From a virus, in IMG/VR virus record IMGVR_UViG_3300007734_000458, positions 1 through 21,236 of that record: a stretch of DNA of 21,236 nucleotides. One strand, given 5' to 3'. The position numbers and the translations under genes were made by a program. Below, one piece after another: positions 7,107-16,135 of this stretch (positions within the stretch are counted from its first letter, which is position 1; each line of letters begins with the position of its first letter). The notes under the pieces were generated by a model. The model had not been told where the DNA came from. It saw only the letters and a program-made list of their open reading frames with translations, and did no database searches.

Positions 7107-7192
7107 GCTTCACCTCCAAACTCACTCAGACATTTTTTGCAGACAATCAATCCGCGCATCGCTCTGCGATACCCGCAATGCTCACACATCAT
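7103..7192 (-). CDS. Tiny zinc-ribbon-like protein, 29 residues
   Basis: From ATG 7192 to TGA 7103, with AAGGAG six bases before the start. Two knuckles are visible: CEHC at 3-6 and CKKC at 18-21, separated by a basic stretch (GYRRAMRGLIV). This is the minimal C-x2-C / C-x2-C pattern of a zinc ribbon. The start overlaps the stop of the sigma-like gene (ATGA) and its own stop overlaps the next ATG, so it is fully embedded in the coupled series. A second in-frame ATG directly follows the first. It may bind zinc and a protein partner such as RNA polymerase or the sigma-like protein; that is inference. Confidence 0.65.
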   Translation of the reverse strand: MMCEHCGYRRAMRGLIVCKKCLSEFGGEA

Positions 7193-7611
7193 TTGCTTCT
7201 CCTTTTTTCAATCTTCCACCAAAACCAAGGCATCACCCTGGTGTCCAATTCCCATATATTCATGCCAGTCAGTGCCTTCTGGTGGGTTCGAAACCTGCGC
7301 AACGCCTTCTCCAAAATCTGCCGCACACGCTCTGGCGATCTGCCGCCCATCTCCTCGCCTGCTTCTTTGAGCGTGCAGCCATCGAGCACGCACAGCGCAA
7401 TGGCCTGCTCCTCCTGATCAGTCAGCGGCGTGATAGCCACCAGGCGGCGCGCAAAGTCCTGCACCAGAACCAGATCAGGATCGGTCTGCACCGGCCACCA
7501 GGCATCGATCGGCTCACATTGCTCCGGCTCAATGTCTCGGCTGTACCAGATCGCCTTGACCTCGCTGGGCAAGTTGGCCACACCGAGCTTGCCATAGTGT
7601 TGTCCCCTCAT
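7189..7611 (-). CDS. Sigma-70 region 4-like protein
   Basis: A 140-residue protein. Residues about 58-108 read as sigma region 4: LTDQEEQAIALCVLDG (63-78) matches the region 4.1 helix pair, and LKEAGEEMGGRSPERVRQ (81-98) followed by ILEKALRRFR (99-108) matches the region 4.2 helix-turn-helix with the typical S-x-E-R-V-R-Q-I-x-x-K-A-L-R ending. No region 2 is present, so it cannot replace a full sigma factor. The tail (109-140) is aromatic and basic. Region 4-only phage proteins may bind the polymerase beta flap or a -35 like site and redirect transcription. GGAG lies before the ATG, which overlaps the helicase stop (ATGA). A plain HTH regulator is the alternative. Confidence 0.8.
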   Translation of the reverse strand: MRGQHYGKLGVANLPSEVKAIWYSRDIEPEQCEPIDAWWPVQTDPDLVLVQDFARRLVAITPLTDQEEQAIALCVLDGCTLKEAGEEMGGRSPERVRQILEKALRRFRTHQKALTGMNIWELDTRVMPWFWWKIEKRRSK

Positions 7612-11958: not shown

Positions 11959-12144
11959 ATGATGACCCTTGAACAGATACGCAACGCCCTATCAGACCGA
12001 ATGCCAATCAAGGTAGCCGAGGCGACTGGCGTTCACTACAACACCATCCGCCAAGTGCGTGACAACCCAAACGCAAACCCAACCCATAAAGTCCTGCTGG
12101 CGCTGTCCAACTACTTGGAAAGCCGCAAGGTGACGCATGGCTGA
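11959..12144 (+). CDS. Small helix-turn-helix regulator
   Basis: A 61-residue protein. PIKVAEATGVHYNTIRQV (16-33) reads as an HTH: helix 2 IKVAEATG, turn, recognition helix VHYNTIRQVRD; then KVLLALSNYLES is the closing helix. It resembles Cro-size phage regulators. AAAGGA precedes the tandem ATG codons (11959 and 11962; either could be used). It is the first gene of the rightward transcript and faces the divergent promoters, so it is well placed to repress one or both (inference). Its last eight bases overlap the primase start. Confidence 0.75.
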   Translation: MMTLEQIRNALSDRMPIKVAEATGVHYNTIRQVRDNPNANPTHKVLLALSNYLESRKVTHG

Positions 12145-14155
12145 CCTTTCCAACGTCCTTGGCGGCCCTTGGTCGCCACCACCAGAAAAGAGAATTGAAG
12201 CACCTGAGACACAACTTAGAGACGCCATGCTGTCGGCTGGTCTGGAGCCGCCAGACGAGCTGCTGCTGGACGGAAAGATTCACAGGTTCAAGTCCGGCAC
12301 CAAGGGAAACGGCAGTCACGGAGGTGATAAGCCAGGCTGGTATCTGGTGTTTGGTGACGGCGTCCCGGCTGGCCGGTTCGGCTGCTGGCGCGCAGGCGTG
12401 GAGGTGACCTGGCGCGCAGAGGTTGGCCGCAAACTGACAGCCACCGAGGAAATGGCGCACGCCAAGCGCATGGCAGAGGCCAAGGCGCTGCGCGATGCCG
12501 AGCTGGAGCGCAAGCACGAGGTGGCATCAGCCACGGTCGAGATGATCTGGACCTCGGCTCAGACGGCCAGCCCAGAGCACCCCTACCTGGCGCGCAAGGG
12601 CATTGGCGTGCATGGGGCGCGCGTGACCGGCGATGGGCGCCTGGTAGTTCCGCTGTATGGCCAGGACGGCACCCTGGCCACGCTGCAGTACATCTCGCAC
12701 GACGGCGGCAAGCTGTACCACCCAGGCGGCCAGACTGGCGGTAAGTTCTGGATGGTAGGCTCACTGGATGAGCCTGGCACGCTGTTCGTGGCCGAGGGTT
12801 TTGCCACTGCAACCACCATCCACGAAACGACCAACAGGCCGGTGGTGGTGGCCTACAGCGCCAGCAACCTGGTGCCGGTGACTGGTAGCCTGCGCGAGAT
12901 GTACGGCTCCAGCCAGGACATTGTGATCGTGGCCGATCACGACAAGTCAGGCGTCGGCCAGCGGTACGCAGAACAGGCCTCGGCCAAATTTGGAGCGAGG
13001 ATGGTCATGCCGCCAATCGAAGGAGATGCAAACGATTATGTGCAGGCAGGGCACGACCTGGCCAGCCTGCTCATGCCCAGCCACGACGACTGGCTCATCC
13101 CGGCTGACGACTTCTCAGCCCAGCCCTCACCCATCTCCTGGTTGGTCAAGCGCTGGCTGCAGGCCCAGGCCTTGGTCATGGTCCACGGCCCATCGGGCGG
13201 CGGCAAGACATTCGTGGTGCTTGACTGGTGCCTCAGAATCGCCTCACAAACGCCTGAATGGGCTGGCCACAAGGTGCGGCCAGGCAATGTGGTCTATTTG
13301 GCCGGTGAAGGCCACCACGGCCTGCGTGGGCGCGTCGCAGCCTGGAAGCACCACCACCAGGTCGGGCACCTGGCCATGTGGCTGTCCAAAGACGGCTGCG
13401 ACCTCAACACCCCGATCGGCTACCTGAAGGTGGTCGAGCAGGTCAGGATGCTGCCAGAAAAACCATCCGTGATCGTGGTTGACACCCTGCACAGATTCCT
13501 GGCCGGTGATGAGAACAGTGCCCAGGACGCCAAGACCATGCTGGACGCCTGCAATGCCCTGATGATGGAGTTCAAGTGTTCGGTCATCCTGGTGCACCAT
13601 ACCGGCGTCTCCGACGAGGCCCAGCACAGGGCGCGAGGCTCAAGCGCTTGGCGAGGCGCTCTGGACATCGAGATCAGCATCGTGCCAGGCCAGGACGGCG
13701 CGCCGATGCAGATCGTGCAGCGCAAGTCCAAGGACGCCGAGCTGGCCGAAACCATCCACGTCGAGCTGCAGCAAGTCACCATCCCCGGCTGGTACGACGA
13801 GGACAACCAGCCGGTCACCAGCGCGGTGGTCGTTCAGGCCCAGGCGCCAACTTCAGGCAAAAAGGATAGCAAGATCGACAGCCATCGCAAGACTTTCGAG
13901 AACGCTTGGTGGTCATCAGAAGCCGAGGAACGTAATGGTTTACCCTATCTCAGCAGGTCGGCCATGATGGACTATCTGGTGCAAAAACTGGCCATCAGCG
14001 AGGCCTCAGCCAAGCAATACATGAAGGCCAGCGTGCCAGGAAAGCCGATCGCCGACCTTCTCACAGCCCAGATTATTGAGGCCTTTGAGCATGGCTGGTC
14101 CGTGGTCGACGAGGTTCAAGCAAGCGCCATGCTGATCCGGAAATCAACAAAATGA
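12137..14155 (+). CDS. Bifunctional TOPRIM primase / RepA-like helicase
   Basis: A 672-residue replication protein. The N-terminal half has a primase layout: PYLARKGI (149-156) and VPLYGQDGTLATLQYI (171-186), then a TOPRIM core with LFVAEGFATA (216-225, Glu220) and IVIVADHDKSG (262-272, Asp267 and Asp269). The C-terminal half is a RecA-fold ATPase of the RepA/AAA_25 type: Walker A GPSGGGKT (351-358), VVYLAGEG (385-392), Walker B VIVVDTLHRF (445-454) and ILVHHTG (484-490). It should make primers and unwind DNA at the phage fork. No zinc-binding domain is obvious at the N terminus. AAGGTGA precedes the ATG, which overlaps the HTH gene by eight bases. It lies directly upstream of the putative origin. 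Confidence 0.9.
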   Translation: MADLSNVLGGPWSPPPEKRIEAPETQLRDAMLSAGLEPPDELLLDGKIHRFKSGTKGNGSHGGDKPGWYLVFGDGVPAGRFGCWRAGVEVTWRAEVGRKLTATEEMAHAKRMAEAKALRDAELERKHEVASATVEMIWTSAQTASPEHPYLARKGIGVHGARVTGDGRLVVPLYGQDGTLATLQYISHDGGKLYHPGGQTGGKFWMVGSLDEPGTLFVAEGFATATTIHETTNRPVVVAYSASNLVPVTGSLREMYGSSQDIVIVADHDKSGVGQRYAEQASAKFGARMVMPPIEGDANDYVQAGHDLASLLMPSHDDWLIPADDFSAQPSPISWLVKRWLQAQALVMVHGPSGGGKTFVVLDWCLRIASQTPEWAGHKVRPGNVVYLAGEGHHGLRGRVAAWKHHHQVGHLAMWLSKDGCDLNTPIGYLKVVEQVRMLPEKPSVIVVDTLHRFLAGDENSAQDAKTMLDACNALMMEFKCSVILVHHTGVSDEAQHRARGSSAWRGALDIEISIVPGQDGAPMQIVQRKSKDAELAETIHVELQQVTIPGWYDEDNQPVTSAVVVQAQAPTSGKKDSKIDSHRKTFENAWWSSEAEERNGLPYLSRSAMMDYLVQKLAISEASAKQYMKASVPGKPIADLLTAQIIEAFEHGWSVVDEVQASAMLIRKSTK

Positions 14156-14161
14156 CCAAAG

Positions 14162-14170
14162 TTATCCACA
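14162..14170 (+). promoter_or_regulatory. DnaA box 1 (perfect consensus)
   Basis: TTATCCACA, identical to the high-affinity E. coli R1-type DnaA box, six bases after the primase stop. Confidence 0.75.
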
Positions 14171-14172
14171 AG

Positions 14173-14181
14173 TTATCCACA
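14173..14181 (+). promoter_or_regulatory. DnaA box 2 (perfect consensus)
   Basis: Second TTATCCACA in the same orientation, 11 bases (about one helical turn) after box 1, so two DnaA molecules could bind on the same DNA face. Confidence 0.75.
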
Positions 14182-14193
14182 ATCACTCAGGCC

Positions 14194-14299
14194 GTAACTG
14201 GTAACTGTAACGTAAAAAAACGTAACTGTTACATTGGGCAAAAGCAGCGATTTGCGGTAACGTAACGTAACACACCCCTTTAGGGGTGTTACCAGTTAC
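14194..14299. repeat. GTAAC iteron cluster with flanking inverted repeat
   Basis: GTAAC occurs at 14194, 14201, 14207, 14222, 14257, 14262 and 14267; its complement GTTAC at 14228, 14288 and 14295. Three copies at 14257-14271 are in direct tandem. The outer arms GTAACTGGTAAC (14194-14205) and GTTACCAGTTAC (14288-14299) are perfect inverted repeats of 12 bases. The pattern suggests binding sites for a phage initiator or regulator. Confidence 0.7.
14272..14289. repeat. Hairpin inside the iteron cluster
   Basis: ACACCCC and GGGGTGT make a 7-bp stem with a TTTA loop. It could be a terminator for the primase transcript (no T-run follows on either strand), or a structural element of the origin. 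Confidence 0.5.
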
Positions 14300-14351
14300 C
14301 GATCGATGCAGCGAGATTTGATACCAAACCAGAGCCAGACCATCAGAAAAG

Positions 14352-14360
14352 TTATCCACA
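14352..14360 (+). promoter_or_regulatory. DnaA box 3 (perfect consensus)
   Basis: Third TTATCCACA, same orientation, beginning 23 bases before the ATG of the next gene. Bound DnaA could block its promoter or ribosome site region, linking expression to DnaA occupancy (inference). Confidence 0.7.
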
Positions 14361-14374
14361 GGCAGATTTCAAAA

Positions 14375-14557
14375 ATGACCAAGCAACGAGAAACCCCAAA
14401 CTTCGCAAGCTGGCAACACGACACCCTGGCCAAGTTTGCAACCGAGTGCTACACCAGGCTGCAGGATGAGATGGCTGCGAACGATCAGTTGCGGCTGGAC
14501 CTCAAGGATGCGATGAAGCTGGCGCACAAACAAATTTTGGAGGACAATGCGGCATGA
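14375..14557 (+). CDS. Small helical hypothetical protein, 60 residues
   Basis: A 60-residue protein with TPNFASWQHDTLAKFATE (7-24) followed by a helix rich in Gln, Asp, Leu and Lys (QDEMAANDQLRLDLKDAMKLAHKQ). Similar short SW...L..FA.E proteins precede ParB-like genes in betaproteobacterial phages as far as I recall; no function known. The frame is open back to an ATG at 14306, but that start would place DnaA box 3 inside the gene and has no ribosome site. The ATG at 14375 also lacks a strong Shine-Dalgarno, so the start is uncertain. The stop overlaps the ParB-like start (ATGA). Confidence 0.65.
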   Translation: MTKQRETPNFASWQHDTLAKFATECYTRLQDEMAANDQLRLDLKDAMKLAHKQILEDNAA

Positions 14558-15084
14558 CCACGAAAACACACAATCCCGCAGATAAGGTTGAACGCTGGGC
14601 CATCGAAAAACTGGTGCCTTATGCACGCAACGCCAGGACGCACTCGGACGAGCAGGTCGGCCAGATCGCGGCCAGCATCAAGGAATGGGGATGGACTACT
14701 CCGATCTTGGTGGATGAGACCGGCAGCATCATTGCCGGCCACGGGCGCACGTTGGCCGCACAGCGCCTGCAAATGACCGAGGTGCCAGTGATGGTAGCCA
14801 AGGGTTGGTCAGATGCCAAGAAACGGGCCTACGTACTGGCAGACAATAAGTTGGCCATGAATGCTGGGTGGGACAATGAAATGCTGGCGCTTGAGCTAGG
14901 CGAAATTGGCGATCTGGGCTTTGACCTGGACCTGATTGGCTTTAGTGCTGGAGAAATTACCGGATTGACTTTTGAAGAAAAAGATTTATATCCTGATTCC
15001 AGCACAAAAGAAATTGATCCAGATGACTATAATATGGGACACCAATGTCCAAAATGCGGATTTGAGTTTGACGATGATAAGTAA
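14554..15084 (+). CDS. ParB/Srx-like domain protein with C-terminal zinc ribbon
   Basis: A 176-residue protein. Residues 15-100 form a ParB-like domain: IEKLVPYARNARTHSDEQV (17-35), SIKEWGWTTPILVDE, then IIAGHGRTLAAQRL (59-72), the box II motif that binds CTP in ParB and ATP in related Srx folds, and AYVLADNKLA (92-101). Phage proteins of this type are often fused to an N6-adenine or N4-cytosine methyltransferase; here that domain is absent and the protein ends in CPKC plus an acidic tail (165-176). The next gene, an overlapping frame, is a C5-methyltransferase. Composition becomes AT-rich from about codon 130 on. It probably binds DNA and may partner the methyltransferase (inference). Confidence 0.8.
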   Translation: MTTKTHNPADKVERWAIEKLVPYARNARTHSDEQVGQIAASIKEWGWTTPILVDETGSIIAGHGRTLAAQRLQMTEVPVMVAKGWSDAKKRAYVLADNKLAMNAGWDNEMLALELGEIGDLGFDLDLIGFSAGEITGLTFEEKDLYPDSSTKEIDPDDYNMGHQCPKCGFEFDDDK

Positions 15085-16135
15085 ACCAGATTGCGCTTGG
15101 AATTTGTCAGACTTGACAACCATTTCAAAAAACGGATTAAAGGTAATGAGTACCTTTGCCTGTGGTGGCGGCTCAAGTATGGGTTACAAACGAGCTGGAT
15201 GTGAAGTGATTGCAGCCAATGACATTGACCCGGAGATGGCCTGGCATTACAAGCTGAACATCAACCCAAAACATTATTTCCTTTGTCCTATTGGTGAATT
15301 GCTGGAAAAGGAATTGCCAGAAGAACTTTACAATCTGGACATTCTTGATGGTTCACCACCTTGTTCCACCTTCAGCATGGCAGGGAGTAGGGAAAAAGCC
15401 TGGGGTAAAGACAAACACTTTAGGGAAGGCCAAGCCAAGCAAGTGCTGTCTGACCTGTTCTTTGACTACCTCGACTTGGTGGGAAAGTTAAAGCCCAAGG
15501 TAGCCATTGCTGAGAATGTCAAGGGAATGTTGATTGGCAATGCCAAGGGTTACACCAAGATGGTGATGGCACGATTCAAAGAACTTGGTTACAGGCCGCA
15601 ATTGTTTTTGCTTAATGCTGCTGATTGTGGTGTCCCACAACGCAGGGAACGGGTTTTCTTTGTAGCCATCCGTGATGATATTGAAGTCCAGTCTTTGAGG
15701 TTGGCTCCAAAACATCAATGGATAAATTGTGGAAATGCCACAAAAGATTTAAAAATAACTTTGGATGAATTGGAAGAAGTTAAATTTACTGCTAATACTG
15801 ATTTAATCTGGTGGCCTAAAACCCGACCTGGTGAGGATTATGGAGATGCTGTTAAACGTACTGGACAACCAGTTAAATTATGGAATTCAAAAAAACTTGA
15901 TCCAAATGCGCCATCCTTAACATTGACCGCAACTCATGCAATGTTCAAACATTGGAAAGAACCAAGACATCTCACATTTCGTGAATATGTGAGATTAGGA
16001 GCATTTCCAGACGATTATCAAGCTAAATCAAATAATATTGGCAAATACATGATTGGCATGAGTGTTCCACCTAAAATGACTGAACAGGTTGCTCGTGCAG
16101 TGATTGACCAATGGCTTTTGCCAAAGGAGAAATGA
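15074..16135 (+). CDS. DNA (cytosine-5) methyltransferase
   Basis: A 353-residue C5-methyltransferase. Motif I FACGGGS (28-34), motif IV SPPCS (94-98) with catalytic Cys97, motif VI ENV (147-149), motif VIII QRRER (189-193), and C-terminal motifs IX/X around LTFREYVRLGAFPDDY (300-315) and IGMSVPP (327-333). The target-recognition region lies between about 205 and 295. No cognate restriction enzyme is nearby, so it is probably an orphan enzyme protecting phage DNA from host restriction. I start at ATG 15074, an 11-base overlap with the ParB-like gene; ATG at residue 25 is an alternative, and the longer frame from 14972 lies over the ParB gene. The gene is much more AT-rich than its neighbours: 17 of 60 bases are G+C at 15721-15780, against 43 of 60 at 13321-13380. 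Confidence 0.92.
   Translation: MISKPDCAWNLSDLTTISKNGLKVMSTFACGGGSSMGYKRAGCEVIAANDIDPEMAWHYKLNINPKHYFLCPIGELLEKELPEELYNLDILDGSPPCSTFSMAGSREKAWGKDKHFREGQAKQVLSDLFFDYLDLVGKLKPKVAIAENVKGMLIGNAKGYTKMVMARFKELGYRPQLFLLNAADCGVPQRRERVFFVAIRDDIEVQSLRLAPKHQWINCGNATKDLKITLDELEEVKFTANTDLIWWPKTRPGEDYGDAVKRTGQPVKLWNSKKLDPNAPSLTLTATHAMFKHWKEPRHLTFREYVRLGAFPDDYQAKSNNIGKYMIGMSVPPKMTEQVARAVIDQWLLPKEK

Follow-up and report, generated by a model that had tools for sequence, protein, structure and literature searches.

The 219-bp intergenic region at positions 14156-14374 of an IMG/VR virus record (21,236 bases, not marked complete; the whole stretch was analyzed and is called the window here) is very probably a phage replication origin, at which the primase-helicase encoded directly upstream would use its C-terminal domain to bind short repeats, helped by host DnaA in this lineage. 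Comparison with relatives supports this assignment: the layout of the region is conserved, its repeats change sequence in concert, residues 627, 633, and 634 of the primase-helicase track the repeat type, and a hairpin keeps its pairing. The origin, initiator, DNA-binding domain, and specificity residues of an uncharacterized phage family are proposed here from sequence alone.

Genomic context and the C-terminal domain

The window codes for a P22-like portal, a terminase, a scaffold protein, and a replication gene block. The following genes and protein segments bear on the proposed origin.

11959..12144, + strand: small HTH protein, 61 aa (phrog_18104 transcriptional regulator, E 5e-10)
12137..14155, + strand: primase-helicase, 672 aa, proposed initiator (Toprim_3, AAA_25; phrog_2249 DNA primase; RSF1010 RepA profile match)
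13865..14149, + strand: codons 577-671, C-terminal winged-helix-like domain, proposed to bind the repeats (AlphaFold2)
14015..14017, + strand: codon 627 (Gln), proposed specificity residue, tracks the repeat type
14033..14038, + strand: codons 633-634 (Val-Pro here), second proposed specificity position, separates the types
14554-15084: ParB-like protein with a ParB_N domain, ~200 bp downstream of the site

The HTH gene overlaps the primase-helicase gene by 8 bases. The primase-helicase carries a Toprim_3 domain (E 6e-12) and a RecA-like helicase domain with a profile match to RSF1010 RepA (PDB 1g8y; residues 323-503, E 4e-5). AlphaFold2 modeling of the C-terminal domain by itself (pLDDT 91.7, pTM 0.82) predicts a helix, a strand, three helices, a two-strand wing, and a final helix, an order that fits a winged helix, with residue 627 in a predicted helix (622-628) and residues 633-634 in a loop. 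Structure comparison retrieved mostly winged-helix regulators, weakly (best Foldseek E 0.04, best Z 6.7), and searches of the domain against Pfam and PDB sequences gave nothing clear; the predicted fold is probably a winged helix. The whole-protein model is poor outside the C-terminal domain (pLDDT 55.5), and its Foldseek list, headed by T7 gp4, is a hint only. We note that the window also codes for a C5 cytosine methylase, which could mark phage DNA, and a protein weakly similar to sigma factors (14972-16135 and 7189-7611, respectively).

Elements of the putative origin

Directly 3' of the primase-helicase stop codon the order is two DnaA boxes, ten repeats in two groups with a spacer, a hairpin, a third box, and the next gene (ATG at 14375), as follows.

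14162-14170, + strand: DnaA box 1, exact TTATCCACA, conserved in relatives
14173-14181, + strand: DnaA box 2, exact TTATCCACA, 11 bases from box 1 start to start
14194..14232: left repeat group, GTAAC at 14194, 14201, 14207, and 14222, inverted copy (GTTAC) at 14228
14236..14249, + strand: conserved spacer GGGCAAAAGCAGCG between the repeat groups, from the alignment of relatives
14257..14299: right repeat group, GTAAC at 14257, 14262, and 14267, inverted copies (GTTAC) at 14288 and 14295, hairpin between
14272-14289: hairpin ACACCCC-TTTA-GGGGTGT, paired stem in relatives
14352-14360, + strand: DnaA box 3, exact TTATCCACA, shortly before the ATG

What the initial annotation saw here is confirmed. 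The three boxes are exact, all on the + strand, with no further exact match in the window, and the seven GTAAC and three GTTAC elements lie far above chance, with ten in 219 bp where the remainder of the window predicts 0.2 (Poisson P ~2e-14). No other 5-mer in the window clusters comparably; the next best reaches 7, and 30 shuffles gave 5 to 7. The 12-base inverted repeat said to enclose the cluster is perfect (GTAACTGGTAAC/GTTACCAGTTAC at 14194-14205 and 14288-14299) and surrounds the repeats, but it leaves the DnaA boxes outside. The hairpin described within the cluster is present, and an A7 tract (14214-14220) forms the loop of the left repeat group; two stem-loops are possible on a single strand of the region, and its single-strand folding is better than in 200 of 200 shuffles (z -3.6). 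A role for the hairpin as a transcription terminator was rejected, as there is no T tract behind it and no terminator-like match, and an Rfam search of the site matched no known RNA family.

A GC skew switch at the site had also been named as a check. Cumulative GC skew has its minimum at 12183 instead and gives no support, and neither the window nor the complete relatives MW202867 and PB15 have a skew extreme at this location. Because the window minimum coincides with the change in transcription direction, we discarded it as an origin marker, and GC skew neither supports nor refutes the assignment.

Conservation and concerted repeat switching

A search of viral contigs with the primase-helicase protein yielded 80 relatives at ~79 to 90% identity, and box counts cover the 77 loci with a complete region. 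Conservation had been set beforehand as a test that could refute the origin, and both boxes and repeats are strongly conserved. Three perfect boxes are present in 53 of the 77 loci, two in 17, and one in 7; the box 1-box 2 spacing is 11 or 12 in all 53 three-box loci, with box 3 165 to 181 bases further on, and outside the region the same 77 loci contain 1 box in their remaining 709 kb. An origin elsewhere was the other outcome that would have counted against the site, and no second box cluster was found in 19 relatives, many of them >30 kb, in which boxes elsewhere are rare. The GGCAAA of the spacer is present in 74 of 77 regions, and the hairpin has more than 10 different stem sequences among relatives, with pairing maintained and the TTTA loop mostly retained. 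Conservation of the boxes is what points to the use of host DnaA, as the initial annotation had suggested.

Five loci (L009, L016, L025, L047, and L061) have an alternative right half of the origin 3' of the primase-helicase gene, with a TCTATAG loop and with box 3 in a TTGACTTATCCACA context; this right half is found with GTAAC and with GGAAC repeats, with matching copies in each. In another locus (L087:4116-4280, MW202867 14428-14592) the repeat array is covered by a hypothetical protein of the public record, and this annotation is probably not a gene.

The repeats of relatives are of type GTAAC, GGAAC, or CCCCT/AGGGG. GGAAC takes the place of nearly every GTAAC in roughly half of the relatives, and seven loci are of the CCCCT/AGGGG type. 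Inverted copies and hairpin arms change with the repeat type while order and orientation stay constant, such that the grammar >>><|>>><<, for example, is common to GGAAC and CCCCT loci, with close variants in GTAAC loci. In this notation three direct copies and an inverted one precede the spacer, and three direct and two inverted copies follow it. A tree of primase-helicase residues 1-590 mixes the repeat types, with at least 8 switches on supported branches and 13 on the best tree. Most GGAAC loci (e.g., L004, L026, and L030) retain exactly one GTAAC, in the left group, which is perhaps a relic or a tolerated site.

Primase-helicase residues that track the repeat type

Among the 672 residues of the primase-helicase, only 627, 633, and 634 separate GTAAC from GGAAC loci in the alignment. 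Residue 627 is Gln in 37 of 37 GTAAC loci, and Val (36/37) or Thr (1/37) in GGAAC loci; residue 634 is Pro in all GTAAC loci but one (36/37, the other being Gln) and in no GGAAC locus. Residue 627 also follows the repeats in 8 of 8 independent switch pairs (sign test p 0.008), and in CCCCT loci residues 593-650 are replaced. One relative (L043) was predicted from its Gln627 to have GTAAC repeats before they had been located, and its displaced origin does carry them. There, ~950 bases with an acyltransferase-like reading frame lie between the primase-helicase gene and the origin; the frame (L043:6177-7150) resembles bacterial 1-acylglycerol-3-phosphate acyltransferase and is either a captured host gene or an assembly chimera, and the origin behind it is intact.

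With just ~180 bp between the proposed specificity codons and the repeats, and with a replaced C-terminal segment in the CCCCT loci, one might suppose a single recombining cassette in which protein and repeats are physically linked and the binder is another protein. We regard this as very improbable. Linkage alone fails because sites nearer to the repeats than codon 634 do not track the type: the lowest nucleotide overlap between types is 0.32 for sites from codon 634 to the repeats, against 0.00 at 627 and 634. The pairing of Gln with GT, moreover, holds in relatives of ~50 to 60% identity with different surrounding repeats.

The initial annotation had offered either the primase-helicase or the HTH protein as the GTAAC binder, and the tracking residues favor the former. 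No column of the HTH protein alignment separates the types, and it is probably a regulator rather than the repeat binder; its gene slot upstream of the primase-helicase is exchanged for unrelated HTH types among close relatives. Neither the terminase, the ParB-like protein, nor other neighbors separate the types fully. The ParB-like gene, ~200 bp downstream, raises the thought of a parS-like partition site, and some ParB columns are associated with repeat type (lowest overlap 0.19), a partial association expected from its closeness on the map. We give this proposal next to no weight, however, as no ParB column does what primase-helicase residues 627 and 634 do, the gene was found in only 40 close loci, and the array also occurs with other neighbors.

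The repeats might instead be operators through which the primase-helicase or the HTH protein regulates downstream genes, with replication starting elsewhere. The array does lie between genes, the following start codon comes 15 bases after the end of box 3, and a promoter-like TTGACTTATCCACA context surrounds the site in some relatives. We nonetheless consider operators improbable: the repeat type is tracked by a replication enzyme and not by the HTH protein, no promoter-like or terminator-like match falls on the site in the window, the gene downstream varies among relatives while the array persists, and a two-dyad array of ten copies, combined with DnaA boxes and a paired hairpin, is more than an operator usually contains.

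The reading we prefer remains an origin, supported by the conserved boxes and repeats and by residue tracking. The winged-helix-like domain would bind the GTAAC repeats, with Gln627 in its helix and loop residues 633-634 setting which repeat is read. The two repeat groups, each with direct and then inverted copies, may bring protein assemblies to face each other and help to open the DNA between the groups, whereupon the primase-helicase would load its own helicase domain and the Toprim domain would prime, perhaps at the A7 and TTTA loops of the two stem-loops. In this lineage, host DnaA bound to the boxes on either side probably assists in opening or arranging the origin.

The wider family

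The isolated phages 1N2-2, CGphi29, PB15, and XX1924 and the assembled genome MW202867 have their own repeats and a hairpin at the same place.

Idiomarinaceae phage 1N2-2: repeat GGTACA
Alteromonas phages PB15 and XX1924: repeat GGTTCA
Salicola phage CGphi29: repeat GGGGACA
MW202867: repeat TGGGACA

Across 68 distinct combinations, which are not independent and include many close kin, the second base of the 5-base repeat is T in 23/23 with Gln627 (two of them poorly aligned), G in 7/7 with Val627, and G in 14/15 with Thr627; with Lys and Asn at 627 it is mixed and not predicted. We infer a rule that is chemically sensible for Gln627 and T, because contacts of glutamine with adenine are classical. 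It is moderately likely that these proteins form a widespread initiator family whose C-terminal domain reads the repeats by a rule close to a code (at the second base, T:A would be read by Gln627 and G:C by Val or Thr), and that the phages re-key their origins repeatedly, altering between one and three residues along with the full set of repeats, possibly escaping nucleases, satellites, or incompatible relatives.

DnaA boxes are absent 3' of the gene in 1N2-2, PB15, and XX1924, and since several relatives are without boxes, DnaA appears to be an accessory of some lineages. A large group (part of L130-L169, e.g., L132 and L140) has coding sequence and no repeats 3' of the gene, together with an insertion or altered segment in the C-terminal domain; its origin must lie elsewhere or differ. 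The part of the literature consulted that names the isolated relatives makes no mention of an origin or iterons.

Comparison with known replication systems

A close parallel is phage P4, whose alpha protein joins a Toprim-type primase, a helicase, and a C-terminal winged helix in one chain, the last binding origin repeats (PMC4234260). The protein here has the Toprim-type primase domain (Toprim_3), and repeat binding is proposed for its C-terminal domain; its helicase is RepA-type with a RecA-like fold, whereas that of P4 is SF3. The putative origin here comes immediately after the gene, with DnaA boxes on both sides, and where P4 has a second cis site (crr) besides ori, a single cluster is present in this incomplete 21-kb window. 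By analogy, the protein would work like P4 alpha with an RSF1010 RepA-like helicase.

The origin oriV of IncQ plasmid RSF1010 (RepA, RepB', and RepC) shares the related helicase domain, placed with the hexameric RepA-type helicases by its sequence match to 1g8y, as well as repeats and stem-loops as possible priming sites. It differs in having separate RepC and RepB', while here a single fused protein has a Toprim primase, there is no RepC, and the repeats are of 5 to 7 bp at a single compact site. The two stem-loops here recall the RSF1010 priming hairpins and the stem-loop origin of Sulfolobus plasmid pRN1 (PMC4234260). In pRN1 (orf56/orf904) a small repressor gene precedes a primase-helicase with a C-terminal winged helix, and the stem-loop origin lies at most ~170 bp downstream (PMC4234260), matching the arrangement here of small probable regulator, primase-helicase, and then putative origin. 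However, pRN1 has an archaeal-type primase and an SF3 helicase and lacks repeats and DnaA boxes.

Among origins classed by their binding sites, the cluster of consensus boxes with conserved spacing resembles DnaA-dependent origins, although several relatives lack boxes; concerted repeat switching and residue tracking by a nearby-encoded primase-helicase make the region a candidate iteron origin, in which that protein would bind the repeats. Lambdoid O proteins are phage initiators with lineage-specific iterons; in lambda these repeats form part of the O gene, and O brings in the helicase of the host, whereas here the repeats are 3' of the gene and the proposed initiator has its own helicase domain.

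Swapping of initiator domains with their repeats is already known from the RepA/origin modules of PLE satellites of Vibrio cholerae, in which the DNA-binding domain covaries with the repeats and has been swapped several times, and a phage nuclease is able to target the PLE origin repeats (PMC8263062). The PLE initiator has a RepA_N domain and ~30-bp repeats, with no helicase or primase fusion reported there, whereas a few single residues mark the difference here. What is added here is single-residue resolution, many independent switches, and a grammar independent of the repeat sequence. The evolutionary problem of how an initiator and a ten-copy array change specificity jointly recurs here at least 8 times among close relatives; these natural swaps act as ready-made mutants, and a small protein domain with short DNA would suffice to test the rule directly.
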